Part shown: positions 569 to 19,370 of the stretch, piece by piece
Layout: each line of letters begins with the position of its first letter
Numbering within the stretch: position 1 is the stretch's first letter
Assembly: GCF_900142725.1 (NCBI RefSeq)
Contig: NZ_FRBW01000001.1
Coordinates: forward strand, 62,001-126,000
Source of the DNA: Roseibium suaedae
Lineage (GTDB): Bacteria; Pseudomonadota; Alphaproteobacteria; Rhizobiales; Stappiaceae
Length of the DNA stretch: 64,000 bases
Direction: 5' to 3'
Program-made: the position numbers and the translations under genes
The notes under the pieces: model-generated
Seen by the model: the letters and a program-made list of their open reading frames with translations, nothing else
Told to the model about the DNA's origin: nothing
The model's database searches: none

Positions 569-2746
569 ATGCCTGAATTGGCCACTGTCCCGTTCCCGTT
601 TTCACCTGTGTCATGTGCATTTTCCCGGCAGACTGGTATCCGCCGCAGCCCGCTGGTTCTGGCGCTTCTTTCCAGCTCCGCCCTTCTGTTTCCGGTTCAG
701 GTTCATGCCCAGCAGGCCAATGCTGGGGCGGAAGCTACGGAGCTGACGGAAATCGTTGTGGAAGGTGCCACTGACAGCGCAAGCGGACCGGACAAGTCCA
801 TCGTTGCGGGCAGAACGCTTGCCGGCAGCAAGACGGACACGGCCGTGGAGGACATATCTGCGTCGGTTTCCGTTATCACTCAGGCCGAGATGGAGCGACG
901 GGGAACGCAAAATCTGGATGAGGTTCTGGCTTACACGTCCAGCGTTTCTGCCGATGAATATGGCTCTGATGACCGCTACGACTGGGTGCGCATCCGTGGC
1001 TTCTATCAGACCAGCACCGGCTCCTATCTTGATGGTCTGCCCATGCGGATTTCCGGATTTACGGGCAGCAGGGTCGAGCCCTATGGACTGCAGCGGGTGG
1101 AAGTTCTCAAGGGGTCGACGTCAACGCTCTTCGGTCTCAATGCGCCGGGAGGCCTCATAAACTCCATCTCCAAACGGCCGCAGGCGGTGAAGCATGGTGA
1201 GGTCTACACTACGCTGGGTGACGAGCATGTGGAGTTCGGGACGGATTTTGGCGGGCCGATTGATGACCAGGGGATCTGGTCCTATCGGATCACATCCAAA
1301 TGGCAGGATGGGAACAACGGTGCGGACCATACCGAAGACGACCGCTTCTATATTGCCCCGGCTTTGACCTGGGCGCCGACGGATGCGACCTCTCTGACCC
1401 TTTTGCCGAGCTACAACAAGCGGGACGGCAATACTGCGCATGGCATTCCCTATGGATCGGGGATTGATCCGAAGACCTATCTTGGCGAGCCCGAGTTCGA
1501 GGCGATGGATACGATCGAGAAGAACATCGGCTATGCCTTTAGCCATGACTTCGGCAATGGGCTGCAGTTCCGTCAGAACGCCCGCTACACCGATCTCGAT
1601 CTGACCTATGAGTCTGTGTATGGAGCCACGGCCGATCCGTCGGTCTCCCGCAGTGCCTGGGCGGTCTATGGCAACTCCCGCCGTTTCGTGATCGACAACC
1701 AGCTGCAATATGACGTCAGCTTTGGCCGGTTCGACAGCCGCTCGCTTGCCGGTATGGATTTCAGCTACAATGATACGGACGAGCATCGCGTCTTTGGCTC
1801 GGCGTCCGGCATCAACATCTACAATCCGGTTTACTGCGGTTTGTCCTGTCTCACGCTGCCGGCGGGATACGACTGGAACCAGCAGGAAACGGCACGCGGT
1901 TTCTATCTCCAGGAAGAGCTGACCTTTGACGACCGCTGGATCCTGACCCTTGGCGGCCGTTTCGACAGTGTGACAACAGAGTCCGCCTTCCCGGATTCAG
2001 GCCTGTCCTACAAGGCTGATGATGAAGCCTTCACCAAGCGCATCGGCCTGACCTACAAGGTGACTGATGGCCTTTCGGTCTATGGCAACTACTCGGAATC
2101 CTTCCAGCCGATTTCTGCGGACAGGACGTCGCTGGTTGGAACACCCAAGCCGCAGGAGGGCACCCAGTACGAGGTCGGGCTGAAATACCGTCCGGCCAAC
2201 TATGATGCCCTTTTCACGCTGGCCCTGTTCGATCTGACCCAGACGAACGTGCCCTACAACATCAGCACCACCACCCAGAGCCAGATCGGGGAGACGAACG
2301 TCAAGGGAGTGGAGCTGGAAGGCAAGTTCGCACTCACCGACCAGTTCAACCTGACCGTTGCCTATTCCTATTGGGATGCGGAGATTGTCGAGGATGGCAT
2401 CACAGGCAATCAGGGCAACAAGCCTCAGCTCATTCCTCAGCAGATGGCCTCGATCTGGGCTGACTACACCCTGCCGGGCGAAGGGATCTTCGGCGACCTG
2501 ACGCTTGGGCTTGGCGTGCGGTATACGGGCGCAAGTTTTGCGGACAACGAGAACACCCTCAAGATCAAGCCGCATACGCTGGTTGATGCCGCCGTGAACT
2601 ATCAGATCCGGGACAATGTTGCGCTTGCGGTGAATGCCACCAACCTGTTCGACACGGAGTACCTCTCCTATGTCAGCATCTACGACAACACGGCCTTCTA
2701 TGGAGATGGCCGGGCTGTCCGGGCAACGTTGAAATACACCTGGTAA
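569..2746 (+). CDS. TonB-dependent siderophore receptor
   Basis: The 725-residue protein is an outer-membrane ligand-gated channel for ferric siderophore, driven by TonB-ExbBD. An N-terminal signal ends near VHA-QQ (about residue 48). A TonB-box-like ELTEIVVEGA follows, then the plug domain (about 75-190; IRGF, DGLP, RVEVLKGSTSTLFG, PGGLIN) and the beta-barrel ending in a C-terminal aromatic residue (KYTW). It belongs to the ferrichrome/hydroxamate (FhuA/FpvA-like) subfamily by overall pattern; the substrate is not deducible. The ATG at 569 has AGAGG directly abutting it, an unfavourable spacing, so the start is uncertain; the in-frame GTG at 608 is an alternative. The IRO-like box upstream suggests iron repression. 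A 13-bp-stem hairpin follows the gene. Confidence 0.95.
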   Translation: MPELATVPFPFSPVSCAFSRQTGIRRSPLVLALLSSSALLFPVQVHAQQANAGAEATELTEIVVEGATDSASGPDKSIVAGRTLAGSKTDTAVEDISASVSVITQAEMERRGTQNLDEVLAYTSSVSADEYGSDDRYDWVRIRGFYQTSTGSYLDGLPMRISGFTGSRVEPYGLQRVEVLKGSTSTLFGLNAPGGLINSISKRPQAVKHGEVYTTLGDEHVEFGTDFGGPIDDQGIWSYRITSKWQDGNNGADHTEDDRFYIAPALTWAPTDATSLTLLPSYNKRDGNTAHGIPYGSGIDPKTYLGEPEFEAMDTIEKNIGYAFSHDFGNGLQFRQNARYTDLDLTYESVYGATADPSVSRSAWAVYGNSRRFVIDNQLQYDVSFGRFDSRSLAGMDFSYNDTDEHRVFGSASGINIYNPVYCGLSCLTLPAGYDWNQQETARGFYLQEELTFDDRWILTLGGRFDSVTTESAFPDSGLSYKADDEAFTKRIGLTYKVTDGLSVYGNYSESFQPISADRTSLVGTPKPQEGTQYEVGLKYRPANYDALFTLALFDLTQTNVPYNISTTTQSQIGETNVKGVELEGKFALTDQFNLTVAYSYWDAEIVEDGITGNQGNKPQLIPQQMASIWADYTLPGEGIFGDLTLGLGVRYTGASFADNENTLKIKPHTLVDAAVNYQIRDNVALAVNATNLFDTEYLSYVSIYDNTAFYGDGRAVRATLKYTW

Positions 2747-3955: not shown

Positions 3956-6900
3956 TCAGTGGTCCAGCACGTTGAAGGTTACCATGTGAACCGCGGAGGT
4001 CTGGCGGGCAGGCTGGCTATGAGACGTCGTCTTTGCAGCCGAGGCAGCCTGGGCCTTGTTCTTTTCGAACAGCTTCACCGCCAGGCCTCGCGAGGGTGGC
4101 TGGCGGGACGCACGCACCACGCTTCGCGCTTCATGTGCGCTCAGGCGCTGATCCCGAAGCCCGCCTTCCCGGCAGTTCAGCACCAGGGTCTCATCGTTGG
4201 CTGGGGTGTCGAAGATCAGGGCGCCGACAGACTTGTCCGGGATGAGGCGTGGTTCTCCCGGCTGCAGGAATGGATCGCCGATCATCTCATCCGGGATCAC
4301 CTCGACATTGCCATCTGCCTCCACATAGAAGATCTGCAGCTCACAGGCATTGTTGGCGGTGACGCTGAAGGTGAGTTCCTCGCCGACAGCGACATCCGTC
4401 CGGTCGATATGAACCCGGAGCTTCAAGGCGCTCTGCGGATCACCGGCAGGCTTGTAGCCGTCGTCCCGGTAGCTTGCGTCCTTGTAGCTGGGCGGAAGCG
4501 CGTTGGCGTGGCTTGCAGAACCTGCGTGGTGATCCATCGGATCGAGGTTCAGCACGGGTTTAATCAGGCGGGAGAACTGTTCCTCCATCTCGAACCGGGG
4601 GACGCGGACACCGGCCTGCAACTGGTTGATCCAGTCAATGGCAAGGCCGCGGGCCATGGGGTCCTGAACGCGCTGGATGGCCTGCTGGAACTCGTCGAGC
4701 GTCATTTCGAACTCGGCTGCCAGCATTTCCGCATCCATGTCGGCTTCATAGAAGTCGGCAAACCAGGTCATCACCTCTTCCTTGCCCGGACCGCTGCGGC
4801 TTCTGATCGTGCCGTCTGGCGCGGTTTCAACCGCATCGATCTTTGTCAAGGCATCGATGAAGAAGGCCCGGTCCTTCGCATAAAGGGCATCCAGCTCCTT
4901 CTGCTCGACATACATGCGCAGCAGCGTGTCGCGCTGGTCCAGGCTGAACAGGGCAGAGGTTTCCAGATGGCTGCGCAGCTGGTCGCGCTTGGCGATGATG
5001 CCGTCATAGTGGCAGCTCATGCAGGAGCGGCCATTGATGATGTCGATCCCCTTGCCGATCGGGCGCTGGCGGAAGGACACGATGGAGGTCGGTCCTCGGT
5101 CCAGACGGTCCCCGGCGGCGGTGGACAGGTAATAGCCCTGCATGCCGTTGGGCAGGGTGAACAGCATTTCGCCGCCATCATGCTCGAAGGGCTCCAGTCC
5201 GTCGTGCAGGGGAGATACAGCGTCGGGGCCGTGGGGATGCAGCTTCAGGCTCTGCACACCGCGGCTACCGGCGAAGTCATAGGACTTCCAGTAGTAGCCG
5301 CCGCCGGGCAGGTCGTGCCGTTCCAGCATCCGGTTGTGATCGGAAACGCCGGATGATCCTTCCAGGAAAGCGGCGCGGGCGACATCCAGCCGTTCGATGT
5401 TCCGGTTGACGTCCACACCCATGGCCTGTTCGAGATCCTCAATGTTCTCGGGCAGGCTCAGGAGCATGTGATACATCTCCGGACGGCTGGCATTGGCCAT
5501 GAACCAGTCGGCACGCATGATCGGCAGATCGGCGCGGGTGCCGTTGGCAAGAGCCTCGAGCGAGGGATCGTTCCCCGGCGCATAGCCGTAGGGGTAGGTT
5601 GCCGAAAGGGTCTGCCAGCGCTCCGGATCCCACTTCAGGTCGCGGATGTCGACCCGGACCAGCAGATTGTCGCTGCCGTCAACGACGGTCGGCATGACGA
5701 GGCGCGGGCCCTGGGACACGGAGTTGATCAGCTTGCGGAACCCGGCCTGGAACAGATCCAGCCGCCGGGCGAAGGCGTCTTCCTCCTCGCAGGGGTTCAC
5801 GCCATTGTAGAGATTCATGAAGCTATAGTAGCGGGTGAAGGGGCGGTCGCGCTCATCCACCTCGGCGAGATCGCGCAGGGCGAGCTCGGCTTCCTTGCGC
5901 CAGTGGCGCATCGGGCGCGAGCGGGCGGGCGGCGCAGGTTCGGCAGCAACCGCCGTGCTGTTGAGATTATCGATCCATGCGCCCAGAGCCTCCAGTTCGG
6001 CATCGGAAGGGCTGTTGCCATAGGGCATGCGGCCACTGGAAACGCTGGTATAGAGCAGGGACTTGGACCGGTCGCCAGGCGTAACGAACGCTGGATTGCG
6101 GGCAATCGAGGCAAGTTCGCCTGCAGGGAAGCTGCCCTGGGCGCTTTCTCCCAGACCATGACAGTTGCGGCAGTAGCGGCCCACGAATTCATCTGCCTGG
6201 AGCGCCAGATTGTCCGTGGGCACTGCGGTCGTGTCGCCGGTGGCGCGGCAGCTTGCCTCGCTACTCATCTCCACCTTTTCGACCTTCTGTTCCCGTCCGG
6301 TCAGATAGGCGAGCATCGCCAGCCGGTCCTCGTCGGTCAGAACCGAGAGACCCTTGGCCAGATTGCGCTTCAACGGCGAGCTGATGCCGCTGCCGGAGAG
6401 CTTCATTCCCTTGTCGATGAAGTCGCGGGTGAAGACCTCCGGATGGGCCAGACCGGACATGCGGGCGGTCGAGATGTCCGGAGCCAGTTCGCCGTTGATG
6501 GTCTTTTCCCCGGTCAGGCTGAGGTCCTGATCAAGGCCATAGGTGAGTGTGCGCGGGGTGTGGCACTCGCCGCAGGCCCCGACGTTTTCGACCAGATACC
6601 GGCCGCGGCTCATCTGCGAGCCATCGCCTGGCTGGAAGGCGGGTGTCTCGAAGTTCTGGCGCTTCCAGAGGGAGACGGTTGTGTCGAGGTTATAGGGGAA
6701 GGAAACTTCGTGACGCTCGGAGGGCGTATCGGACTGGGCAAGGGTCTCGATATAGGCCTTGATGTCGAGCACGTCCTCCGGCTTCATCCCGGCATAGGCC
6801 GCATAGGGGAAGGTCGGGTAATAATTGCGCCCATCCGGTGCAAGACCATTGATGACGGCATTGAGATATTGGGCATTGGTCCAACCGCCTGTGCCTTGGG

Positions 6901-7201
6901 AGCTGGCGGTGATGTTGGGCACGAAGAACGTGCCGATATGGCTTTCCAGCTTGCGGCCGCCGGACAGAAGCGAGGTGTCTTCCCCGGACGCATGACAGCC
7001 GATGCAGCCAGCCGCATTTGCCAGATAGGCGCCATTCTTGACGTCGCCCTGATAGGTGGCAAAGGCATTGTCGTCAAAAACGTCGGCAGCAATGGCCCCA
7101 TGGGTGGCAAGGCTGGCCGCCAGAAGCATCAGGCCTCCTGCAGCCTTCACCGGAAAAGCAGCTGTCCGGCCTTTCCAATTCTCTTTGTCTTGCAATGTCA
7201 C
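3956..7201 (-). CDS. Exported tetrahaem c-type cytochrome with DUF4384-like C-terminus
   Basis: This is a 1081-residue protein with a GTG start (AGGAG about 8 bases upstream) and a signal peptide or anchor ending near IAADVF (residue 39). Four haem-binding CXXCH motifs are visible: CIGCH (66-70), CGECH (210-214), CRNCH (344-348) and CMSCH (727-731). Residues 45-310 resemble the di-haem cytochrome subunit of membrane alcohol dehydrogenases, and 330-415 a single cytochrome c domain. Residues 440-740 form a domain I recognise only as uncharacterised, with an LPNGMQGYYLS segment before the last haem. About residues 905-1025 resemble DUF4384, a module usually found next to caspase-like proteases. 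It sits 38 bases downstream of the flavocytochrome at 7240, which could feed it electrons. Its exact function is unknown. Confidence 0.8.
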   Translation of the reverse strand: MTLQDKENWKGRTAAFPVKAAGGLMLLAASLATHGAIAADVFDDNAFATYQGDVKNGAYLANAAGCIGCHASGEDTSLLSGGRKLESHIGTFFVPNITASSQGTGGWTNAQYLNAVINGLAPDGRNYYPTFPYAAYAGMKPEDVLDIKAYIETLAQSDTPSERHEVSFPYNLDTTVSLWKRQNFETPAFQPGDGSQMSRGRYLVENVGACGECHTPRTLTYGLDQDLSLTGEKTINGELAPDISTARMSGLAHPEVFTRDFIDKGMKLSGSGISSPLKRNLAKGLSVLTDEDRLAMLAYLTGREQKVEKVEMSSEASCRATGDTTAVPTDNLALQADEFVGRYCRNCHGLGESAQGSFPAGELASIARNPAFVTPGDRSKSLLYTSVSSGRMPYGNSPSDAELEALGAWIDNLNSTAVAAEPAPPARSRPMRHWRKEAELALRDLAEVDERDRPFTRYYSFMNLYNGVNPCEEEDAFARRLDLFQAGFRKLINSVSQGPRLVMPTVVDGSDNLLVRVDIRDLKWDPERWQTLSATYPYGYAPGNDPSLEALANGTRADLPIMRADWFMANASRPEMYHMLLSLPENIEDLEQAMGVDVNRNIERLDVARAAFLEGSSGVSDHNRMLERHDLPGGGYYWKSYDFAGSRGVQSLKLHPHGPDAVSPLHDGLEPFEHDGGEMLFTLPNGMQGYYLSTAAGDRLDRGPTSIVSFRQRPIGKGIDIINGRSCMSCHYDGIIAKRDQLRSHLETSALFSLDQRDTLLRMYVEQKELDALYAKDRAFFIDALTKIDAVETAPDGTIRSRSGPGKEEVMTWFADFYEADMDAEMLAAEFEMTLDEFQQAIQRVQDPMARGLAIDWINQLQAGVRVPRFEMEEQFSRLIKPVLNLDPMDHHAGSASHANALPPSYKDASYRDDGYKPAGDPQSALKLRVHIDRTDVAVGEELTFSVTANNACELQIFYVEADGNVEVIPDEMIGDPFLQPGEPRLIPDKSVGALIFDTPANDETLVLNCREGGLRDQRLSAHEARSVVRASRQPPSRGLAVKLFEKNKAQAASAAKTTSHSQPARQTSAVHMVTFNVLDH

Positions 7202-7239
7202 AGCCCGTCTCCTCTTCCCTCGCGAAAGGCCGATTTCGC

Positions 7240-8496
7240 TTACCGGAATTCGAATTTTTCAAATTTTACTTTGCCGGGGGCATTGCCCGACAGTTTCAGG
7301 TCTTTCACGATGGCAAGGCGCATGGCTTCCGGACCGCAGAACCAGAAGTCGGCGCCCTTCGGGGGAACCTGTGATTTTTCAATCAGTTGAGCCGCACCGA
7401 GGCGGCCGTTCGTCTTGCTTGCATGGAGCGTGAACGTGAAGTTCGGCAGGCTGGCGCTCAGCCCTTCCAGATAGTCCCGTTGCACGGCTTCGACTTCGGA
7501 GCGGACGCTGTGGAACAGGTGCACCTTCTTGTCCGGCGTTGCGCGCAGGGTTTCCACCTGCGCCAGGAAAGGGGTGATCCCGATGCCGCCTGCCAGCCAG
7601 ACCTGGCTCTGACTGCCTTTGTGAACCTCGAACCGGCCGTAGCCACCTTCCAGATGCAGAATGTCTCCGACCTGCAAGGTATCGCGCAGGCGCCGGGTGA
7701 AGTCGCCGAGCGGCTTGATCGCAAAGGAAATCGAGGAAGTGGCCGGATCATGCCGGGCAATGGTGAAGGGGTGAGGCTCGCCAAGACCTGACCGGTCTGA
7801 CTTCAGGAATGCAAAATGACCGGGCCGCGCCGCGATCGGGCGGCCGACAGCCCGTGCGGTCACCAGCGTCGCGCTGGGCAGAGCGATAATGTCGCTCACC
7901 TGATAGCGCTTGCGGGCAATGAAGGGGCGGATCTGGGTCACGATGAAGCTGATCACTCCGATGGCGGCAAAGATGTTCAGGTAGACGGCCAGAAGGGCGG
8001 TGCCATCAAACGGCCGCTTGATGAAATTCAGATGCACGGCAATCAGAATGAAGAAGAAGCCGATGAAGCGGTGTGACTGGCGCCACAGATTATACGGAAC
8101 CTCGATGCGGGTTTTCGGTAGCCGTTTCACCAGGCTGATGCCCGCAAGCACGACAAGGCCATAGAACCCGATCTCTCCCGCGGTTCCTGCCATCTCATTC
8201 AGGCCGGAGGTCAGGACCAGGCCCTTGAAGTTCGGCGTCACGATGTAGTGGATCAGGAACAGCACCAGCGCCGCGATGCCAAGCTGGCGGTGGGTGTGGT
8301 AGATGCGGTCGAGGCCGCCAAACAGACCTTCAAGATAGCGGGGACGGGTGGCCAGGAACTGATTGAGCGCCATGGCCACGAAGGACATGGAGGCTGCGGC
8401 GATCGAGGCCCAGGTTGCAAGGCCGGTGTGGCTTGCTGCCGGAACTGACAGAAAAAACGCCACAAGCACGGCTGCGGCCATCAGAAACTGTCCCAA
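7240..8496 (-). CDS. Ferric reductase/NADPH oxidase-like transmembrane flavocytochrome
   Basis: The 418-residue protein has about six N-terminal membrane helices with haem-ligand-type histidines (YHTHRQLG, LIHYIV, RQSHRFIG, AVHLNF), then a cytoplasmic ferredoxin-reductase-like half. That half shows the FAD motif HPFTIA, the NAD(P) motif GGIGITPF and a terminal CGPEAM...FEKFEF. It would move electrons from cytosolic NAD(P)H through membrane haems to the periplasm, as in ferric reductases and bacterial NOX enzymes. It is the first gene of a two-gene leftward unit with the exported tetrahaem cytochrome, a plausible electron acceptor. It is divergent from the OmpA/CHAT operon. Confidence 0.88.
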   Translation of the reverse strand: MGQFLMAAAVLVAFFLSVPAASHTGLATWASIAAASMSFVAMALNQFLATRPRYLEGLFGGLDRIYHTHRQLGIAALVLFLIHYIVTPNFKGLVLTSGLNEMAGTAGEIGFYGLVVLAGISLVKRLPKTRIEVPYNLWRQSHRFIGFFFILIAVHLNFIKRPFDGTALLAVYLNIFAAIGVISFIVTQIRPFIARKRYQVSDIIALPSATLVTARAVGRPIAARPGHFAFLKSDRSGLGEPHPFTIARHDPATSSISFAIKPLGDFTRRLRDTLQVGDILHLEGGYGRFEVHKGSQSQVWLAGGIGITPFLAQVETLRATPDKKVHLFHSVRSEVEAVQRDYLEGLSASLPNFTFTLHASKTNGRLGAAQLIEKSQVPPKGADFWFCGPEAMRLAIVKDLKLSGNAPGKVKFEKFEFR

Positions 8497-8922
8497 TTTA
8501 CCCCCTCAAACGTCTTGCCGGCCAATCCTCTGGATGGTCTTACCGGCGCTCCGTCAGTTTTCCAGTCAGTTCGCCAAGGTCGGCCCTGGCCTGGAAAAAT
8601 CTCAAATGAACCTTTTGCTGTCGCTCTAGTACCTATGTTCCGAATGGAACGCTTCAGGTTCATGCGTCCGCCTGAAATGTTGCGTCAAACTCAAGAACAA
8701 CTTTTGCTAGAGGCAGTCGTCGCGAAACAATTTGAATTCAATTTCCTTAATCTTTCGAAGAGACTGCCTGAAAAGTCCACTAGAAAAACTCGACTTGTCA
8801 TGCTCTATTGAAATCAAGAATTTTTCAACCCTCCGGATATTTCATTGCCGATTAATAGTCTCGAATAGAGAGACGGTGATACGTCCCGGACCGATTTTGC
8901 AGCTACGTAGGAAACTCGGAAA
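8497..8922. other. Divergent regulatory region between redox and OmpA/CHAT operons
   Basis: This 426-base gap is AT-rich for the window, especially at 8690-8860. Small overlapping frames in it show no protein-like features. It must hold the promoters for the leftward flavocytochrome operon and the rightward OmpA/CHAT operon. I could not identify a confident promoter or operator by eye. Confidence 0.45.
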
Positions 8923-9552
8923 ATGCGGAAAAATGGCATTCTCGTCCGGTTCTCTGCCCGCCTGATCCTGGCAGCAGGGCTCGGACTTGCGGTGAGCACA
9001 CCCGCAGTGGTCGCGCAGGAACTGAACAGCGACAGCATCGTCCAGCAACTTGCGCCGAAGAAGAAGTTCGCGACCCGTGGCCTGAAGTCTGCGGCCACTG
9101 CGCCGGAAATGTCCTCGGATCAGAAAACCTATCTGAAATCGCTTCCGACCCGCGGCCTCAAGGTCGAGATGAAGAAGGAAGTGGCGGTGATCATGGACAC
9201 CTATGACTTGCCGCAGATCAATATCGAGATCCAGTTCGACTATAATTCCGCCAAGATCAAACCGGGGTCGGTTCCGGATCTGAATGCGCTGGGCACGGCC
9301 CTTCTGAGCCACGAACTGTCCGGCGCACGCATCCTGCTCAATGGCCACACAGATGCGGCCGGCAGCCAGCAGTTCAATATGGGGCTGTCCGAAAAGCGGG
9401 CCGATGCGGTGCGGGACTATCTGATCTCCAGGTTCGGGATCGAGCCTGACCGGCTGATCGCCATCGGCTTTGGCGAAGAGCGCCTGAAGAACCGGCATGA
9501 TCCGGAGGCAGCTGAGAACCGAAGGGTTGAAGTGGTCAATCTGAACGGCTGA
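8923..9552 (+). CDS. OmpA-family C-terminal domain protein
   Basis: This is a 209-residue exported protein. The signal peptide ends near VVA-QEL (residue 30). About 70 residues of linker follow with a duplicated TRGLK motif, then an OmpA/MotB-type peptidoglycan-binding domain from about residue 100 (IQFDYNSAKIKP, LNGHTDAAGSQQFNMGLSEKRADAV, ENRRVEV). The Asp and Arg that bind diaminopimelate in this family are present in GHTD...SEKRA. It has no beta-barrel, so it is probably a periplasmic tether. It is the first gene of an operon with the CHAT protein 32 bases downstream. Confidence 0.9.
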   Translation: MRKNGILVRFSARLILAAGLGLAVSTPAVVAQELNSDSIVQQLAPKKKFATRGLKSAATAPEMSSDQKTYLKSLPTRGLKVEMKKEVAVIMDTYDLPQINIEIQFDYNSAKIKPGSVPDLNALGTALLSHELSGARILLNGHTDAAGSQQFNMGLSEKRADAVRDYLISRFGIEPDRLIAIGFGEERLKNRHDPEAAENRRVEVVNLNG

Positions 9553-9584
9553 TCTGGAAAAGCGCGGGAGGGCGCGGAGGCGAA

Positions 9585-12500
9585 ATGGTAAGCAGGGTCC
9601 TTCTGTGCCTGATGGCGCTGGTTCTTTCGGCAGCCTCGGCATCCGCCATCGAAATCTACCGCAACAGCAAGCCCTATGACGTGGCGGCGTCCCTGCCGTC
9701 AGGCTTCTTCTTCCGGGAAGAAGGCGTCGACCGGAAGTTCGATGTCGGTGGTGTTGCGGGCAACCTCCGGCTCATTCAGGACAGCTATTCGGAATGCGAA
9801 AGCCTTGTCGACGAGCGGCAGAGAAACTGGGTTAAATACGGCTTCGATCAGGCCTTTGACCGGTATGTCAGCCCGAATGAATGCTCCATCAGCATTCACA
9901 ACAGCAACAGCCGTGAAAGCGTAAGCTCCTTCTATATCCGCATCGATGCCTGTGCCTGCTATTCCGCCCTGCATTTCCGCTATCTCGAACAGGCACGGCC
10001 GGATTTCGAAGCCTATGCGCCGTCGATTGTTTCCAGTGTCCGCACCAACAACCGGGGGGCGGCTGGACCTGCCATTGCCTCGCGAGGGGCTGCGCCAGTT
10101 GCACAGACCCCGGCACAGGCTTCCTCCAAATCCCCGGCACAGGCCGCAGAAGTTCGATCCCTGCCGCAACAATTGCCTCAAAGCTCGGCATCGTCCGAAG
10201 GCGGAGCCATAGCACGCATCTATCGTGCACTGGACCCGCTGAAATGCTCGGCTATTGGCAAAGAGGAAGTGAAGCGGGGAGAGGATGCAGTCATTCTTCT
10301 GTCCGCATGGACGGGCACCAAGGCCAAAGATCTTGCCCGCCGGGCGGGTGGAGCGGACCTGTCACAGATCATTTATGACTCGGACTGGGGCAACAACAAG
10401 GGTCCATATCTCCGGTCGCTGGAGCGGATTGTTGCGGCACATGACGGTGCGGTTCAAAGGATCGAAGCCGATGCCCAGACTTATGGCGCTGCCCTTTGCG
10501 GCATCATTGCCTTTTCCCTCAAGGACACCCTGAACAATCTCAGCTCTGCCCAGGACGGGTTCAATTCCGTCTTTCATGACTATCTGAAGGCTGCCCAGAC
10601 GCTGGTCCAGCTCCATAATTGCGGGAGCGGCACCATTGATGGCGCTTTCGGAGGCGGCAGCCGGGCAAACTGGAACACCATGCTGGAAGGCCTGGGCCTT
10701 ACTCCGGTCAGCGGAGCCTTCACGCCGACGTTGAGTGATCTGGCAAAGGCTGCATCTGTTCCGGTCAATGCGCCGGTCTGTGCTGGCGGCAGCGTTCAGA
10801 CCGCAGCTCCCGGCGGAGATCAGATCCTGCCGTTCCTGTTCCCGACCGATGATGCCTACACGTCCGGTGGCTGGCTCGCAAAGCGGACGCCTGCCCTTCG
10901 CCAAAAGCTGGAGTCCCTGGGGCGGGAAGGGCGCTGGTCCGCCTTTCAGCAGATGCTGGTCCGTCGTCTCGTCTATGAAGGCTATGAGCCGAAAAGCGAT
11001 GTGGCCGCGACATTGCTCGCCAATATCTTCGAGGATGGCATCGGGGTGACACCTGATCTGCAGGCGGCCCGGTTCTGGCGCGGCAAGGCCTCGGAGAAAC
11101 CGAGCAGCTTCGAGCGCTATCTGGTGGCTGTGCGCACCGGTGAGGGGCTGGAAGCCGTGACCCGGAGCCTGTCCGGCTGGCAATCAGATTACGAGAGTAA
11201 CTTTCAAACACCGATCGTCAGCGGCCCCATGCTCTACATTTCCGCGCTCGAGTTGTCGCTGGACAACCGGCTGGAGCTTGCGCGTCTTGGTCATATTGTC
11301 ATGAAAAGCTCCCGGATGCTGGAGCTTGTCCTTCTGGAAGGCAGCAAGGAGCTGCAATATTCCCTGGCCGAACGGCTTCTGGATGGGGCAAGCATTCTTG
11401 GCAAGGGAACGTCTCAGGCCGTGGCCTTGTTGCGCCGGTCTGCGGAACAGGGGGCGCCTTACGCGGCCTCGCATCTCGCCTTCATGATGACTTACGGCAA
11501 TGGAGCAGCGGCCAATCGCGAGGAAATCGGACGCCTTTTGCAGTTTGCCGTTGGCAAGGGAGATCCCTTTGCGGCCTATCAGCTGGCGCGGCTGGCAGAG
11601 CGGGAAAATCCCTCCGACATTCAGCAGGCGGTCAAATGGTATGACAAGCTGATTGCCTTGAATGGCAAGGATGGCCGGTCCGTTGCCGGTATCAGCCTCA
11701 TCGTCAACCGCATCATGTCCGGCAGTCTTGCTCTCTCTAATCCTTCAACTCAACAGGGCATTGAAAAGCTGGCCCAGGAGGATGTGTTCTTCGCCCAGGA
11801 AATGGCCCGCATGTATCTTTGCGCGGAATGCGGTGGTTCGCTTGACTTTGCCGAGGGCGCAAAGTGGCTCCGGGTCATGCGCGATGGGAAGCTGGATTAT
11901 GCGAATGTGGTGCTCTACCGGCTTCTGACCCAGCATCCGGAGCTGGCCAAGTCCAAGTCTGAGGCGCTGGATGGGCTGGCTAAGCGTGTGCACATCGAAA
12001 ATGGCGTTCTGGGTTGGGAAACCGACCTTTCCTCCTATGTTGTCTACAAGGCTGAGCTTGCCCGGAACAAGGTGAAAACCGGGGAGCTTCCCGGTTTCAT
12101 GGCTGAGGTGCTGAACCAGATTTGCGCTGAGCCCAAGAACCCGGAGCACTATTGCGAGGATGGGGCAAAGATCTTGGCCTCGGGAGCGCTGGGCGCCGAT
12201 CTCGTTGCGGTGGGGCTGGAGCTTCTGGAAAAACGCCAGTCCATCGCCCTCGTGGATGTTCTGGCTGCCTATGGGGATTTTACCGGTGCGGTTGAGCGCG
12301 GCCTGAAGGCCGAGCAGGAGGAGCTGCTCGACAGGGCTGCTCTTATCTGGCCAGGTGGTATCCGGGAGGGCAGCCTGTTTCTTGATATCGACCGGCTGCG
12401 TTCGCCCACGCTGCGCCGGCTCATTGCCCAGCGGGATCCGGACAATCTGAAGTCTCTGCCCAAGGGCTTTGGCGAATATCTGGCGCTTCTTGCGCGAAAT

Positions 12501-14540
12501 GGGGACACAGGAGCCCGGAACTACCTGAAGCTTCTGTCGGCACCATTGGCGGCACCGGTTCCGGTTCAGACCGACCTTGGCAAGGCGCGGGAGACCTTCG
12601 AGACGGTCAAGGCCCGCGGCGGCCTGAACCTGTCCCTGGTGACGGCCGCCCGCATCTATTCCAGTGCACTGGACGGTGAAGGCAACAGGACGCAGGCGCT
12701 TGAACTTGAACTGACGGCCCTTGCCGCCGAGCGCCAGCTGGATCAGGTGATTGGTTTTGGCTCCGGCGCCCTTCAGGCGAGCCTCACCACCGTTTGCCAC
12801 ATGTCCAAGGCCAGTGAGCGGATCTTTGCCTTCGGGGCGGACGATATCGCCCTGGTGCTTGCCAAGGACGTGATCAACGAGCTGCAGCGCGTGCGCAGGG
12901 ACCTCAGTGCCATACCTGAACGGCTGCAAGGCTGCTTCCGCGATCTGGTCGCCGACAATTACCGCTGGCTAGCCGATCTCCTGGTGCGGCAGGACCGCTT
13001 GAGCGAAGCCGAATTCGTTCTTTCCCTTCTCAAGGACTTCGAGGCGTTCCAGTTCTCCGGCCGGGACAGGGCCTTTGAAGGCGATGCCTTCCGGCAGCTG
13101 CCCTATTCTGCGGAGGAACAGGAACTGAAGGATGCGCTGGATGCCTTGAGGCTGCCAACCGTCAGCGCCGTGCACCGCCGCGATCAGCTGCTTGCCCGCC
13201 AGTCCATGCAAGCACTGACAGCGCGTGAAAAAGCCGAGCTGGATCAGCTGAACCAGCAGCTGGAAGAAGCGGGGGCTGCCTATGACGCGGGCCTGAAGCG
13301 GATCCTGGCGGCGGCCAAGGGTTTGAGCGACGCACCGAAGGCCCGCGAGGCGATTGCTGCGGAAGACTCGGTACAGAAGACCATCCTGGCGCCGCTGGAT
13401 GAAAAGGCCGTGGCCATCCATTATCTGGTGATGCCGGACCGGCTGAACATCCTCGTCACCACCAAGTCCGAACGCAAGAGTGTCACCATTTCCGAGTGGC
13501 GCGGCGAGCCCTTCACAGAAGAGCGCCTGAATGCGGCGCTGGCCAATTTCCATGAAGTCATCACCGACGCGCGACTGGACGACAAGCCCCTGAGCCGGGA
13601 CCTCTATGATCTTCTGGTGAAGCCGGTCGATGCGGATCTTGCGGCTGCCGCGCCCGATCTGGTGCTGGTGTCCCTCGACAAGCGCCTGCGCTATCTGCCT
13701 TATCAGGCGCTCTATGATGGCCAGCGCTACCTGATCGAGCGGTTTGCCTTGTCCCTGCTGACCAGCAGCGAAAGCGAGATCACAGGCAAACGCGCGACGG
13801 GGATTCCCTTTGCGGCGCTGGGCATGACCCAGGAGACGGAGCTCTTTTCAGCGCTTCCGGGGGTGGCCGTGGAACTGGATGGCATCGTCAAGGGGCAGGA
13901 TGGTTTCGGCCTGTTCGACGGGCAGATCTACATGGATAAGGCCTTCGACAAGCCTGCGCTGGTGCACTCCCTCAAGATTGGCGAGGCAAGCCCAAGCGAT
14001 CTGGGCGTGGTCCATATCTCGTCGCATTTCTATCTTGGAGAGAGTGACAAGGATTCGTTCCTGCTGCTCGGCACGGGCGAGCATCTCAGCCTCGCCGAGA
14101 TCAAGAACGATCCCAAGGACTTCGACTTCAAGCATGTGGAGCTTCTGACGCTGTCCGCCTGCGAGACCGGGCGTGTCCATCCGGACCGGGATGGCCGAGA
14201 GATCGAAAGCCTTGCCAAGATCACTGGCGACCGGGGTGCGCAATCCACCATTGCCAGCCTCTGGCAGGTCGCTGATGCGTCAACCGCCATCATGATGCAG
14301 CGCTTCTATGAGCTGCGCGAATTCGGCAACATGAGCAAGGCCAGGGCGTTGGCCATCGTCCAGCGGGAGTTCATCACCGGCAAGGTCGGCGACGAGCAGA
14401 ACCTGGCCACCCGCAGTGTCGTGTTCGAAACCGCCCGCAAATTCGGCGAAGCCGTGCCCGTGGCAGCTGATGGCATGAACCCGGGCTTTGCCCATCCCTA
14501 TTTCTGGGCTCCCTTTGTCCTGACAGGAAACTGGCGATGA
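9585..14540 (+). CDS. Giant exported Sel1/alpha-solenoid CHAT-domain (caspase-like) protein
   Basis: This 1651-residue protein begins with a Sec signal peptide (cleavage near ASA-IEI, residue 21). A Cys-containing N-terminal domain (25-160) and an Ala/Pro/Ser linker (161-210) follow. A peptidoglycan-binding-like segment lies near 350-390 (DGAFGGGSRANWN). Sel1-type repeats (about 430-720), a long helical solenoid, a short coiled coil near 1207-1240 and a C-terminal CHAT domain (about 1260-1650) complete it. In the CHAT domain the usual His motif appears as VHISSHF (His1477, His1481) and the Cys motif as LSACETG (Cys1526), so a protease dyad is possible, although the Gly normally after the His is Phe. 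Most studied TPR-CHAT proteases are cytoplasmic; this one carries an export signal. It overlaps the next gene by 4 bases. Confidence 0.88.
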   Translation: MVSRVLLCLMALVLSAASASAIEIYRNSKPYDVAASLPSGFFFREEGVDRKFDVGGVAGNLRLIQDSYSECESLVDERQRNWVKYGFDQAFDRYVSPNECSISIHNSNSRESVSSFYIRIDACACYSALHFRYLEQARPDFEAYAPSIVSSVRTNNRGAAGPAIASRGAAPVAQTPAQASSKSPAQAAEVRSLPQQLPQSSASSEGGAIARIYRALDPLKCSAIGKEEVKRGEDAVILLSAWTGTKAKDLARRAGGADLSQIIYDSDWGNNKGPYLRSLERIVAAHDGAVQRIEADAQTYGAALCGIIAFSLKDTLNNLSSAQDGFNSVFHDYLKAAQTLVQLHNCGSGTIDGAFGGGSRANWNTMLEGLGLTPVSGAFTPTLSDLAKAASVPVNAPVCAGGSVQTAAPGGDQILPFLFPTDDAYTSGGWLAKRTPALRQKLESLGREGRWSAFQQMLVRRLVYEGYEPKSDVAATLLANIFEDGIGVTPDLQAARFWRGKASEKPSSFERYLVAVRTGEGLEAVTRSLSGWQSDYESNFQTPIVSGPMLYISALELSLDNRLELARLGHIVMKSSRMLELVLLEGSKELQYSLAERLLDGASILGKGTSQAVALLRRSAEQGAPYAASHLAFMMTYGNGAAANREEIGRLLQFAVGKGDPFAAYQLARLAERENPSDIQQAVKWYDKLIALNGKDGRSVAGISLIVNRIMSGSLALSNPSTQQGIEKLAQEDVFFAQEMARMYLCAECGGSLDFAEGAKWLRVMRDGKLDYANVVLYRLLTQHPELAKSKSEALDGLAKRVHIENGVLGWETDLSSYVVYKAELARNKVKTGELPGFMAEVLNQICAEPKNPEHYCEDGAKILASGALGADLVAVGLELLEKRQSIALVDVLAAYGDFTGAVERGLKAEQEELLDRAALIWPGGIREGSLFLDIDRLRSPTLRRLIAQRDPDNLKSLPKGFGEYLALLARNGDTGARNYLKLLSAPLAAPVPVQTDLGKARETFETVKARGGLNLSLVTAARIYSSALDGEGNRTQALELELTALAAERQLDQVIGFGSGALQASLTTVCHMSKASERIFAFGADDIALVLAKDVINELQRVRRDLSAIPERLQGCFRDLVADNYRWLADLLVRQDRLSEAEFVLSLLKDFEAFQFSGRDRAFEGDAFRQLPYSAEEQELKDALDALRLPTVSAVHRRDQLLARQSMQALTAREKAELDQLNQQLEEAGAAYDAGLKRILAAAKGLSDAPKAREAIAAEDSVQKTILAPLDEKAVAIHYLVMPDRLNILVTTKSERKSVTISEWRGEPFTEERLNAALANFHEVITDARLDDKPLSRDLYDLLVKPVDADLAAAAPDLVLVSLDKRLRYLPYQALYDGQRYLIERFALSLLTSSESEITGKRATGIPFAALGMTQETELFSALPGVAVELDGIVKGQDGFGLFDGQIYMDKAFDKPALVHSLKIGEASPSDLGVVHISSHFYLGESDKDSFLLLGTGEHLSLAEIKNDPKDFDFKHVELLTLSACETGRVHPDRDGREIESLAKITGDRGAQSTIASLWQVADASTAIMMQRFYELREFGNMSKARALAIVQREFITGKVGDEQNLATRSVVFETARKFGEAVPVAADGMNPGFAHPYFWAPFVLTGNWR

Positions 14541-15298
14541 ACTGCTCTTCCGCATCTCTGGTCAGGGCCTTGACCGGCCTTGGAGCTCTCGCAGCCATTC
14601 TACTGCCCTTGCATGGAGCGCAGGCCCAGGAAGACAAGGACATCATGTCCGCTGCCGGGCAGTGTTTCAGGGCTTCCTACAAGGCCGAGAGAGGCGATGT
14701 CAGAGACATCCGGATCTTCTTTGAGCGCTCGGTTTCCAAGGAGCCGGGGCAGGAGATCTATGTCGATCTGAATTATTCCTACTGGGATGTGCCGAATGAA
14801 ACCTATGGCATGACGGCGAATTGCTCGTCGAATGGCCGGGAGATCATCTGCGGGATCGAATGCGATGGCGGACGCCTGCGGCTGCAACTGGCGGAGGACG
14901 GGCGTCTTCTGGCCGAGGCCATAGGCCTTCGAACCGATGCCCATGAGGCTTCCAAGAGCCTGCTTCCCGACTACAACGGTGCCGATGGGCTGGTGCTCAA
15001 TAATATCTTCGCACTGGAGCGGACGGGACCGGCGGATTCAAGCTGCAACTTTGATCCGCAGACCACCTTTGTCGCGCTGCAGGCCGGCGACCTGTCGCCC
15101 CGGGTCGCCATTCTGGAAGCGAAACTGAACCAGCTCGGCCATTTGCTCGAGTTCCCGGACGAGGTCTTCGACGAAGTCACCAGCGCGGCGGTGAAGTCCT
15201 TCCAGGTCCAATACCGTCTTCCAGACACGGGCATCGTGGACGAACCTACCGCCCGCGCGATCGAAAGTATCTCCCTGACCAATCTGGGCGGCTGTTGA
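14537..15298 (+). CDS. Exported peptidoglycan-binding-domain protein
   Basis: This 253-residue protein begins with an ATGA overlap on the CHAT gene, so the two are translationally coupled. A signal peptide ends near AQA-QED (residue 31). The middle region (about 35-180) is an unrecognised domain with several cysteines. The C-terminal ~65 residues match PG_binding_1 (VAILEAKLNQLG, AVKSFQVQYRLPDTGIVDEPT). It probably anchors a periplasmic assembly on the wall together with the OmpA-domain protein. It could be a substrate or partner of the CHAT protein, but that is inference from gene order. Confidence 0.82.
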   Translation: MNCSSASLVRALTGLGALAAILLPLHGAQAQEDKDIMSAAGQCFRASYKAERGDVRDIRIFFERSVSKEPGQEIYVDLNYSYWDVPNETYGMTANCSSNGREIICGIECDGGRLRLQLAEDGRLLAEAIGLRTDAHEASKSLLPDYNGADGLVLNNIFALERTGPADSSCNFDPQTTFVALQAGDLSPRVAILEAKLNQLGHLLEFPDEVFDEVTSAAVKSFQVQYRLPDTGIVDEPTARAIESISLTNLGGC

Positions 15299-15534: not shown

Positions 15535-17241
15535 ATGAAGTCTAAGAATTCACCGGTTCACCGCGCTTTCGTGGCACTTCGCCTCGGCTTTGTCGGTGTT
15601 GCCATGATCAGCCTAGTAATCAATATCCTGATGTTGACCGGCCCCCTGTTCATGATGCAGGTGTATGACCGTGTCCTGGCGAGCGGCTCAATCCCCACCC
15701 TCCTTGTTCTCGGCTCACTTGTTGCGGCTCTCTACTGCTTTTATGGATTGCTCGAGGCAATTCGCGGCCGGATTTTGGCCCGGCTGGCGCAGCGGGTCGA
15801 TGCGCAGCTGTCCAGATTGGTCTACGGCATTTCCAACGAGCTGCCCGTCACAATCGGGCGCCGTGCAGCTCATGTTCGCCCGGTCGTTGAATTGGATACG
15901 ATAAGACAGTTTTTGTCGGGGCCAGGTCCCACCGCAATATTCGATCTGCCGTGGCTGCCGTTCTACCTTGTGATTGTTTATCTGTTCCATCCGGTCCTTG
16001 GCCTGGTTGCCGCGGGCGGAGGATTGTTGATCTGTCTCCTGATTGCTCTCAACGAGGCTGTCTCAAGACGGCCGGTCGAAGAGGCCGTGAAGTACAATGC
16101 CCTGCGGTCTTCCGACGTTGAAGCCGGTCAGAGGAACTCCGAAGTCATCCATGCAATGGGCATGCAGCCGGCTCTTTCATCGAGGTGGGAAGCCGCAAAT
16201 GTGCTCTTTCAGAGGTCGCAACGTGTGGCATTGGACTGGGCAGGATTCTATGGGAATCTGACGAAAACCCTTCGTTTCGTTCTTCAGTCAGCAATATTGG
16301 GAACCGGTGCCTGGCTCGCGATCGAGCACGAGATTTCTGCAGGTGTCATGATTGCAGCTTCCATCATGACTTCCCGGGCATTGTCGCCGATAGAACAAGC
16401 TGTCGCAAATTGGCGCGGATTTGTTGCATGCCGGCAATCGGTTTCCCGGCTTACAAAGCTTCTCGAGAGACCGAATCTCGAAAAATCCTACTCACTCCCC
16501 TTGCCTTTGCCCAACAAGACCGTGACGGTTGAGGCCTTGTACTGCGGGCCGTTTGGCGAGCCTAATCCAACTCTTCAAGGCATTTCATTTGCGCTGTCCG
16601 CCGGTGAGGGGCTTGGGGTTATTGGAAGCTCGGGAGCAGGAAAGACGACGCTTGCGCGTGCACTTGTAGGTGCTCTGGCTCCTTTGAAGGGGGCTGTGCG
16701 CTTTGATGGTGCAGAACTGAGCCAGTGGTCAGAGGACCGGAGGGGCGAAATCATCGGCTACTTGCCTCAGGATGTGCAGCTTTTTGACGGTTCAATTGCA
16801 GAAAACATTGGCCGTTTCCGGAAAGATGCTGACCCGGTAGAGATTATTGAGGCTGCACAGATCGCGGATATACATGATCTCATCGTGTCCCTGCCTGAGG
16901 GCTATGACACGATAATTGGAAGATCGGGCCGTATTCTATCAGCAGGCCAAAGACAGAGAATTGCACTGGCAAGAGCCTTGTTCGGCACGCCTTTTCTTCT
17001 GGTTCTGGATGAGCCGAACTCGAATTTGGATTCCGGAGGTGAAGTCGCGCTTACTCAGGCGATCAAGACGATGAAAGACAAAGGAAGCGTCGTCATTGTA
17101 ATCGCCCACCGGCCAAGCGCGATCGTTGCTGCGGACAAGATCCTGTGCCTTCAGGACGGCCGAATGACAGCCTTCGGTCTGAAGGAAGAAGTCTTGAAAA
17201 AAGTACTCGCCCCTGTCCCTGCAAAGCAGGAGGTGATGTGA
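15535..17241 (+). CDS. Type I secretion system permease/ATPase (PrtD-type ABC exporter)
   Basis: This is the inner-membrane ABC half-transporter that powers export of RTX proteins. At 568 residues it matches the PrtD/RsaD/AprD family, which lacks the C39 peptidase domain. A six-helix exporter domain occupies about residues 15-320 (SLVINILMLTGPLFMMQVYDRVL is typical). Next comes the nucleotide-binding domain, with Walker A GSSGAGKTT near 364, signature LSAGQRQRIALARA and Walker B LLVLDEPNSNLD. The ribosome site before ATG 15535 is weak, but the family N-terminus fits. The next gene overlaps or abuts it, and the RTX protease downstream is the obvious substrate. Confidence 0.93.
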   Translation: MKSKNSPVHRAFVALRLGFVGVAMISLVINILMLTGPLFMMQVYDRVLASGSIPTLLVLGSLVAALYCFYGLLEAIRGRILARLAQRVDAQLSRLVYGISNELPVTIGRRAAHVRPVVELDTIRQFLSGPGPTAIFDLPWLPFYLVIVYLFHPVLGLVAAGGGLLICLLIALNEAVSRRPVEEAVKYNALRSSDVEAGQRNSEVIHAMGMQPALSSRWEAANVLFQRSQRVALDWAGFYGNLTKTLRFVLQSAILGTGAWLAIEHEISAGVMIAASIMTSRALSPIEQAVANWRGFVACRQSVSRLTKLLERPNLEKSYSLPLPLPNKTVTVEALYCGPFGEPNPTLQGISFALSAGEGLGVIGSSGAGKTTLARALVGALAPLKGAVRFDGAELSQWSEDRRGEIIGYLPQDVQLFDGSIAENIGRFRKDADPVEIIEAAQIADIHDLIVSLPEGYDTIIGRSGRILSAGQRQRIALARALFGTPFLLVLDEPNSNLDSGGEVALTQAIKTMKDKGSVVIVIAHRPSAIVAADKILCLQDGRMTAFGLKEEVLKKVLAPVPAKQEVM

Positions 17242-17243
17242 CG

Positions 17244-18560
17244 ATGTCAGCTTCCCATGTGCCAGAAGAGGGGGATACGACGCTACGGGCCAGTTTGCGC
17301 AGGCATTTCCTCATCTCTTTTGTTCTGTGTGTTGCCTTGTTCGGAGGAGGTATCGTCTGGGCGTCTACGCAGAATATTTCCGGAGCTGTCGTCGCTTCGG
17401 GAAAAGTGGCCGTTGAAAGCAATATCAAGCAAGTTCAGCATCGTGAGGGAGGTATCGTCAAGGAGATCTATGTACAGGATGGCGATGTCGTAGAGGCCGG
17501 GAATCTCGTGTTGAAGCTGGATGACACGGTCACAAAAGCCAATCTTGCCGTCGTGAACAAGCAGATCTCTGAGCTGACAGCCCAGGAGGCGAGACTGGCG
17601 GCCGAGCGAGACGGCCTGGCCGAGATTTCGTTCTCGAATTCAGTCCGCGGAGGTTCCTCTGTCGCTGAACTGACTGGTGTCCAGCGCCTCCTGTTCGATG
17701 CTCGAAGGGCCAGCCTTGCAGGCCGCAAGCAACAATTTGAAGAACAGATACTCCAGTTCGAGAAGCAGATCGAAGGTCTGACAGCTCAGCTTTCGGCGAA
17801 GGCGCAGGAGATTGATCTCGTTGCCGTCGAGCTCAACGACCTTGGGGGACTTCTGGACAAGCAGCTGGTGTCAAAGAGCCGAGTGACCGCCTTGAAGAGG
17901 GAAAGCGCGCGGCTGCAAGGCGAGTATGGCAGCTTTGTCAGTCAGATTGCGCAGGCCAAGGAGGCAATCAGTGAGAGGCGGATATTGAGCCTGCAGCTCG
18001 ATGAGGGATTCCGGGCGGAAGTTCTGGAGCAGCTTCAGGAAGTCCGCTCCAGATTGGCGCAATTGGAGGAACAGAAGATTGCGGCAGCCGACATGCTGAC
18101 AAGGATGGACATCCGTGCGCCTCAGACAGGTTATGTGCACCAGCTCTCGGTTCACACGGTGCATGGGGTCATTGCACCGGGGGAAACGGTAATGCTGATT
18201 GTGCCTCAGGCAGATCAATTGATTGTCGAGGCCAAAGTCAGGCCGATCGACATCGATCAACTTGGCTCACGGCAGGTTGCCAGAATTAGATTTCCCGGGT
18301 TCGATCACCGGACAACGCCGGAGCTCGAGGGGCAGGTGCTCACGGTTTCCGCCGATACCGCCGAAGACCAGCGCACCGGCGTGAACTTCTATTCCGTCCG
18401 GGTTTTGATAGACGCTTCTGAACTGGAAAAGTTGAAGGGAAAAGTCCTGGTCCCGGGGATGCCGGCAGAAGTGTTTCTGACGACACAGGAGCGTTCGGTT
18501 CTTTCCTATCTGGCGAAGCCGCTCATGGATCAGGTCGTGCATGCAATGCGGGAACGATAG
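17244..18560 (+). CDS. Type I secretion membrane fusion protein (HlyD/PrtE family)
   Basis: This 438-residue periplasmic adaptor links the ABC exporter to a TolC-type channel. It has one N-terminal membrane helix (about 25-45), biotinyl-lipoyl halves (GGIVKEIYVQDGDVVEAG; later RAPQTGYVHQL), a long coiled-coil hairpin (about 100-290) and a C-terminal beta domain ending in a short basic tail. AGGAGG at 17228-17233 sits 10 bases before ATG 17244; a GTG at 17238 overlapping the stop of the ABC gene is the alternative. No outer-membrane TolC gene is in the window, so the channel must be encoded elsewhere. Confidence 0.93.
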   Translation: MSASHVPEEGDTTLRASLRRHFLISFVLCVALFGGGIVWASTQNISGAVVASGKVAVESNIKQVQHREGGIVKEIYVQDGDVVEAGNLVLKLDDTVTKANLAVVNKQISELTAQEARLAAERDGLAEISFSNSVRGGSSVAELTGVQRLLFDARRASLAGRKQQFEEQILQFEKQIEGLTAQLSAKAQEIDLVAVELNDLGGLLDKQLVSKSRVTALKRESARLQGEYGSFVSQIAQAKEAISERRILSLQLDEGFRAEVLEQLQEVRSRLAQLEEQKIAAADMLTRMDIRAPQTGYVHQLSVHTVHGVIAPGETVMLIVPQADQLIVEAKVRPIDIDQLGSRQVARIRFPGFDHRTTPELEGQVLTVSADTAEDQRTGVNFYSVRVLIDASELEKLKGKVLVPGMPAEVFLTTQERSVLSYLAKPLMDQVVHAMRER

Positions 18561-18753
18561 GGTCGTGAACGTCGTCTACTACGATGGGATTTCATTCTGA
18601 ATGGAATGAGAAACATTTGGAATTGAATAAATATTGAAATTCACGCAGATGGACCTTAGGATTTTTCAATCTATGGCAAAGGTCACGGAATGTTAGTTAT
18701 GAAATCTGCAAGCTTACAATGTGTTCTCGTTTCCTGTTGAGGGTATTTGAACT

Positions 18754-19314: not shown

Positions 19315-19370
19315 TTCAATTACCGTAACGATATTTGGTAATTTTCATTTCTGTTTAGAAGGGGTGAGCT

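Follow-up and report, generated by a model that had tools for sequence, protein, structure and literature searches.

The gene cluster described here occupies positions 3,956 to 15,298 of the window, a 64,000-nucleotide stretch of the Roseibium suaedae contig NZ_FRBW01000001.1 (positions 62,001 to 126,000). It comprises two divergent operons with five genes, P0001 to P0005 (Table 1). One operon encodes a multihaem cytochrome c and a NOX-type flavocytochrome, the other an OmpA-domain protein, a CHAT protein and a peptidoglycan (PG)-binding protein. All five open reading frames were located at the positions assigned to them in the original prediction, which was also accurate for the divergent gap of 426 bases and for the 4-base overlap of P0004 and P0005 (14537–14540). 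A scan of the gap for sigma-70-type promoters gave no match. In Alphaproteobacteria this cytochrome c is associated with caspase-fold proteins, of either the CHAT or the Peptidase_C14 (C14) type, and we consider with high confidence that this association is real and conserved.

Table 1. Features of the P0001–P0005 locus in window coordinates
Feature	Position	Strand	Evidence
P0001, predicted exported tetrahaem cytochrome c	3956..7201	-	four CXXCH motifs; DUF4384
P0001 residues 921-1081, DUF4384 region, predicted Ig-like beta-sandwich	3959..4441	-	PF14326; model matches
P0001 residues 430-890, fourth-haem domain	4532..5914	-	invariant H674, D675, E678, C727xxC730H731
P0002, NOX-type flavocytochrome: b-haem transmembrane domain, FAD and NAD(P)H domains	7240..8496	-	Pfam; 8qt6; His pairs
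Divergent intergenic gap, both promoters presumed inside	8497..8922	.	426 bases by coordinates
P0003, OmpA-domain protein, signal-peptide-like start, predicted wall anchor	8923..9552	+	PF00691 4e-19; signal-peptide heuristic
P0004, predicted exported Sel1/helical-repeat and CHAT protein, 1651 residues	9585..14540	+	PF12770 1.7e-44; Sel1; signal-peptide heuristic
P0004 residues 1335-1649, CHAT domain	13587..14531	+	H1481 at 14025-14027; C1526 at 14160-14162
P0005, predicted exported protein, C-terminal PG_binding_1	14537..15298	+	PF01471 2.6e-12; signal-peptide heuristic

The four haem motifs ascribed to P0001 are present as CXXCH at residues 66, 210, 344 and 727, and its DUF4384 domain scored above the Pfam cut-off (31.1 versus 27 bits), with the PF14326 match spanning residues 937–991. 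Residues 43–413 align with chain C of 7w2j and 8jej, the three-haem subunit of fructose and alcohol dehydrogenases. For residues 430–890 no Pfam model exceeded its cut-off, and their fold was unmatched in the fold-search lists, in which the whole-protein query barely probes this part. In all 55 aligned relatives of P0001 the residues H674, D675, E678, C727, C730 and H731 of the haem 4 domain were kept, as were C344, H348 and M392 of haem 3 and the two cysteines C953 and C1010 of the DUF4384 end. P0001 is a fusion in which a three-haem dehydrogenase-type part is joined to a fourth-haem domain and, at the C terminus, to the predicted Ig-like DUF4384 region. Of 7,998 database candidates that were scored, 3,434 matched a profile of the family of this haem domain with E values of 1e-10 or below; DUF4384 was present in all 120 database relatives listed.

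P0002 was rightly called a flavocytochrome, with Ferric_reduct and NAD_binding_1 over their Pfam cut-offs and FAD_binding_8 barely so (22.2 versus 22 bits). Its histidine pairs 69/83 and 142/155 are spaced by 13–14 residues, and its best solved relative is 8qt6 (E 8e-40, residues 30–417), which, together with 8qq7, we take to be the NOX of S. pneumoniae (SpNOX). P0002 displays the features of the NOX family, namely two b-haem His pairs and FAD and NAD(P)H domains. Because a multihaem cytochrome c gene adjoins, its electron acceptor is likely a protein and not oxygen.

In the rightward operon, the proposed domains all exceeded their Pfam cut-offs: OmpA in P0003 (69.2 versus 27.2 bits), CHAT (152.8 versus 24 bits) and Sel1 (32.8 versus 30.7 bits) in P0004, and PG_binding_1 in P0005 (47.2 versus 23 bits). 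All three proteins passed a simple signal-peptide heuristic. The CHAT His/Cys motifs are real, as H1477, H1481 and C1526 were invariant across a 34-row alignment. A structure model of P0004 residues 1000–1651 reached a mean pLDDT (predicted local distance difference test) of 85.7, and the top rows of a Foldseek search with it were TPR-CHAT (Craspase) chains and separases, including 8eey_B at E 2.5e-12. P0004 gave no PF00656 (Peptidase_C14) match in the Pfam search, and the window locus differs in this respect from metacaspase operons. A homologue of P0005 stays right after the CHAT gene in four loci (L031, L041, L188 and L189), one of which, the R. aestuarii locus L031, contains all five genes in the same order and orientation. 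Four full-length relatives of P0004 also lie on contigs equal in length to that of a listed P0001 relative (P0021/P0086, P0023/P0108, P0024/P0113 and P0028/P0203), a match that is suggestive, though no proof, of linkage.

We compared two sets of loci across genomes. Set 1 was obtained by searching with the C-terminal part of P0001 and holds the best 80 of 145 confirmed stretches, from Rhizobiales and Rhodobacter-type families. Set 2 stems from an order-wide search, with 20 of 33 other-genome loci fetched with wide flanks. As L142 and L145 of set 2 are the same as L042 and L098 of set 1, the sets comprise 98 distinct loci. The C14 profile was built from 10 Pfam-confirmed seeds with two iterations on the same open reading frames, and the nearest-caspase counts depend on it; Pfam confirmed PF00656 in 20 of 21 C14 candidates. 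A caspase-fold gene was found near the cytochrome gene in 75 of the 80 set 1 loci, in 14 of the 20 set 2 loci and in 87 of the 98 distinct loci, always within 5.1 kb in the linked loci (largest gap 5,071 bases). In set 1, 79 of the 80 loci gave an OmpA match, at a distance of at most 1.5 kb in 73, and 77 gave a flavocytochrome match, the three misses starting at or near a contig end. In set 2, C14 was present in 14 loci, OmpA in 16 and the flavocytochrome in 5. The 51 canonical loci have operon-like spacing, with median gaps of 23, 12, 0 and -4 bases, and in 40 of them the two C14 genes of the canonical operon overlap by 4 or 1 bases.

The proposal that the two operons form one system stands insofar as the cytochrome side is linked to the caspase-fold/OmpA side in many genomes. 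A strict five-gene unit had to be abandoned, since CHAT and PG-binding genes occur alone in two Roseibium genomes and the cytochrome loci mostly contain C14. Nor is CHAT the partner that stays the same: most loci use Peptidase_C14 instead (C14 in 71, CHAT in 3 and both in 1 of the 80 set 1 loci). What stays constant across loci is a multihaem cytochrome c that ends in a DUF4384-type domain, in most cases accompanied by OmpA and, in one lineage, by the NOX-type flavocytochrome; the variable part is the caspase-fold protein, CHAT or Peptidase_C14. As the flavocytochrome is present in nearly all set 1 loci but only a quarter of set 2, it does not belong to the core. Thirteen of the 20 set 2 haem proteins carry just two CXXCH motifs, and in L153–L156 a separate gene with a lower-score profile match lies beside the caspases. 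The core is therefore likely to consist of the third and fourth haems of the cytochrome with its DUF4384-type end, plus OmpA and a caspase-fold protein.

As a control we used 20 of 28 three-haem loci (L003–L030), fetched blind to content and mostly from the same genus. These 20 loci (383,656 bases), whose three-haem cytochromes lack the fourth-haem part, contained neither C14 nor CHAT and likewise yielded nothing for the flavocytochrome or OmpA. Over the 98.9 Mb of 20 carrier genomes, 103 C14 and 14 CHAT matches were counted, so that 2.6% of 22-kb stretches are expected to hold a C14 or CHAT gene by chance, compared with 18 of 20 observed. The arrangement of the loci varies considerably. The 100 loci show 32 gene patterns, some of which arise from contig cuts or open reading frame calls, and the caspase gene lies upstream or downstream, on the same or the opposite strand. 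On the haem-protein tree, four partner labels require at least 18 changes, as estimated by a quick method with long branches flagged, and CHAT arose beside the haem protein at least twice, on strongly supported branches. With caspase position, strand and type varying in this way, the link is not accounted for by descent of a single fixed block. Because the loci are related, a link that outlives rearrangement is better evidence than p-values.

Counts of the haem protein in large samples of genomes are lower bounds, since 2–5 first-look candidates were scored per genome. No match was found outside the class in 398 and 349 phylum genomes with two profiles at E 1e-20. Within the class sample it was found in 2 of 385 genomes and within the order samples in 34 of 297 and 25 of 199 genomes, the window's own included in each case. 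Among 121 genomes of the order, 73 contain C14, as do all 15 listed with the haem protein (G037 weakly); the hypergeometric value of 3e-4 for the 15 of 15 is supportive only, as membership of all 121 in the 199-genome search is uncertain. Six genomes of the same order (G091, G093, G094, G126, G135 and G143) contain from about 19 to at least 21 Peptidase_C14 genes each. In the small genomes of family f34 (L146 and L147), the haem-protein and OmpA genes are divergent with no caspase beside them, and C14 matches elsewhere number 10 and 7.

The partner caspases largely retain their catalytic residues, with the His kept in 151 and the Cys in 152 of 154 C14 domains. On their first 60 residues, 146 of 177 C14 genes passed the signal-peptide heuristic, compared with 153 of the 613 remaining genes of these loci; a scan extended up to the C14 domain start gave 166 of 177, and we prefer the 60-residue figure. 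DUF4384 was over its cut-off in 4 of the 21 partner C14 proteins given to Pfam. A profile comparison of cytochrome and caspase DUF4384 (probability 87%, pairwise E 4e-6) places both in the same family. The accessory parts of the caspases differ by locus and include TPR, Sel1, SH3, WD40 and NADase_transloc. In L141, C14 is fused to Sel1 and PG_binding_1, with PG_binding_1 over its cut-off and the single Sel1 match below; L106 has the same fusion with PG_binding_1 below its cut-off. Both fusions mirror the part set of P0004 and P0005. At least two open reading frames with caspase domains are present in 69 of the 80 set 1 loci. In L032 (Rhizobium sp. L1K21), CHAT-TPR and an SH3 protein are encoded downstream of the cytochrome, C14 genes lie to either side and a gene for an M15 peptidase is present as well; it is possible that several caspase modules are stacked here.

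We tentatively read the cassette as a redox-gated envelope protease, in which the multihaem cytochrome c, a predicted periplasmic protein, would control a caspase-fold protein presumably tethered to the wall. We give this reading, drawn from domain content and gene linkage, somewhat less than an even chance, and our confidence in its mechanism is moderate to low. The function suggested in the original prediction, a wall-anchored protease that senses redox state or damage, is compatible with it. The flavocytochrome would carry electrons from cytosolic NAD(P)H over the inner membrane, its pair of b haems handing them on to those of the cytochrome c. An invariant His-Asp-Gly-Gly-Glu motif marks the fourth-haem domain, whose state may depend on the supply of electrons or on a small ligand, for instance peroxide or NO. 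Contact through the Ig-like DUF4384 end, with its two kept cysteines, would relay the haem state, a role suggested by the presence of DUF4384 in several partner caspases as well. The gated caspase-fold protease would then cut an envelope substrate, with OmpA, PG_binding_1, Sel1, TPR or SH3 parts positioning it at the peptidoglycan. That the cytochrome c directly switches the protease on or off by electron flow, along a bacterial signalling route that would predate the mitochondrial one or run parallel to it, appears doubtful to us, as does the accompanying notion of a route with an unchanging haem protein and an interchangeable caspase fold, be it C14 or CHAT. Mitochondria derive from Alphaproteobacteria.

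Several observations weigh against a redox-gated protease or against the linkage behind it. In the Foldseek search with the CHAT model, TM-scores were low (0.37). In two Roseibium genomes, G018 (L189) and G024 (L188), the genes for CHAT and PG-binding proteins stand as a pair, with neither OmpA nor cytochrome genes detected, and this pair probably forms a separate two-gene module. The full-length cytochrome occurs in just 2 of the 37 genomes searched in the genus (G000, the window's own, and G016), and 15 of the 20 set 2 loci gave no flavocytochrome match. Caspase-fold genes went undetected in 5 of the 80 set 1 loci, in L034 and L089 despite full flanks, whereas L035, L036 and L099 lie on short contigs. 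They also went undetected in 6 of the 20 set 2 loci, one of which is cut by a contig end. Altogether, an adjacent caspase is lacking in 11 of the 98 distinct loci; genomes of caspase-less loci (G089, G131, G092, G093 and G171) hold C14 genes elsewhere. Moreover, the C14 profile was built from neighbours in these same loci, with 1 of 21 candidates lacking PF00656, and the linkage rows are related, so that counts are not independent and p-values are overstated.

The genes flanking the two operons were also inspected. A sixth gene, which the original prediction had left out, encodes a member of the siderophore-interacting-protein family (3929–2817, minus strand) and starts 26 bases downstream of P0001. 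It is faced by a TonB-dependent-receptor-like gene, judged by eye (569–2746, plus strand). Directly after the CHAT operon, the plus-strand region 15535–23447 encodes a type I secretion pair (ABC transporter and HlyD-type fusion protein) and an RTX protein of 1358 residues with Peptidase_M10_C and VWA domains.

Alternatively, the haem protein could itself be an enzyme or electron sink, for instance an NAD(P)H-fed periplasmic peroxidase or reductase, which the caspase merely matures, anchors or recycles, the protease then serving the haem protein instead of being the output. The closeness of the P0001 N-terminal half to the cytochrome subunits of membrane dehydrogenases is consistent with this, and an active-site role would suit H674-D675-G-G-E678, a motif that is invariant and lies close to the fourth CXXCH. 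However, loci often encode two or more caspases (69 of 80) with locus-specific TPR, Sel1, SH3, WD40 and NADase_transloc parts, and caspases so numerous and varied exceed the needs of a maturation protease. We consider this alternative unlikely. An envelope death or defence device, in which phage or stress damage alters electron flow, the cytochrome senses it and a caspase-fold effector kills or lyses the cell, seems to us comparably improbable. Bacterial immunity is known to employ caspase-fold effectors, TPR-CHAT among them; the Craspase TPR-CHAT chains at the top of the Foldseek list, and effector parts that vary around a constant core as in modular conflict systems, point in this direction. 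On the other hand, PADLOC-DB yielded no caspase or CHAT defence model for any of the five proteins; its sole matches were weak, MotB-type ones to P0003.

The linkage might also reflect neighbourhood only, with common caspase-fold genes, an inherited or accidental association and no joint function. Some genomes do hold at least 21 C14 genes, and a few related genera supply most set 1 loci. Yet even at rich-genome density only about 2–6% of 20-kb stretches would hold such a gene, the control gave 0 of 20, and the link persists through changes of side, strand and fold type; we thus regard this explanation as very unlikely. Least probable of all is an iron unit in which flavocytochrome, siderophore-interacting protein and TonB-type receptor carry out ferric reduction with the CHAT operon as a mere neighbour: the gene positions in the window and the Pfam name Ferric_reduct of the P0002 membrane part agree with it, but it is a weak candidate, as a siderophore-interacting-protein match is listed in 0 of the 80 set 1 loci versus a caspase-fold link in 75.

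Bacterial caspase homologues are a large set of proteins whose functions are mostly unknown, and with the haem protein family they gain a constant, testable partner. The switching of periplasmic caspase-fold proteases thereby becomes testable by haem chemistry and genetics. The association also raises the question of whether a link between cytochrome c and caspases existed before mitochondria.

The association of cytochrome c with caspase-fold proteins is apparently undescribed; no description of such a cassette was found in the open-access literature, a scope that leaves out most subscription journals and all preprints. Closest to the loci of the relatives, through their C14 genes, are the metacaspase/orthocaspase operons. 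Asplund-Samuelsson et al. 2012 (PMC3501461) report alphaproteobacterial C14 operons with several caspases each and OmpA in 14 metacaspase operons, whereas the available main text mentions no cytochrome, heme, redox, electron transfer or CHAT and describes no cytochrome or flavocytochrome link. In the accessible portion of a study on a pseudo-orthocaspase (PMC6426788), DUF4384 is mentioned once and cytochrome not; that of PMC7475262 places DUF4384 in cyanobacterial orthocaspases, its two mentions of cytochrome c concerning plants. The iSTAND/VMAP systems (Kaur et al. 2020, PMC7159879) are alike in that some have periplasmic caspase-like peptidases with OmpA/Sel1, but differ in being NTPase-dependent, and both mentions of cytochrome c in the available text of that paper refer to the APAF-1 apoptosome.

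The TPR-CHAT protein of Craspase (Csx29, type III-E CRISPR) resembles P0004 in having helical repeats followed by a CHAT domain. P0004 is set apart from Csx29 by its signal-peptide-like start, its Sel1 repeats and its PG-binding partner. None of the five genes was seen to encode an RNA-guided partner, with no search aimed at CRISPR or gRAMP made. P0002 resembles SpNOX (PMC11031084 and PMC11564096, as far as their text was available), with 8qt6 and 8qq7 matching nearly its full length, but differs in that its gene adjoins that of a multihaem cytochrome c. P0001, finally, shares its three-haem cytochrome c part with the cytochrome subunit of membrane fructose and alcohol dehydrogenases. No partner dehydrogenase subunit is encoded among the genes read at 569–23447, and in contrast to the dehydrogenase subunits P0001 carries an extra fourth-haem domain and an Ig-like DUF4384 end.

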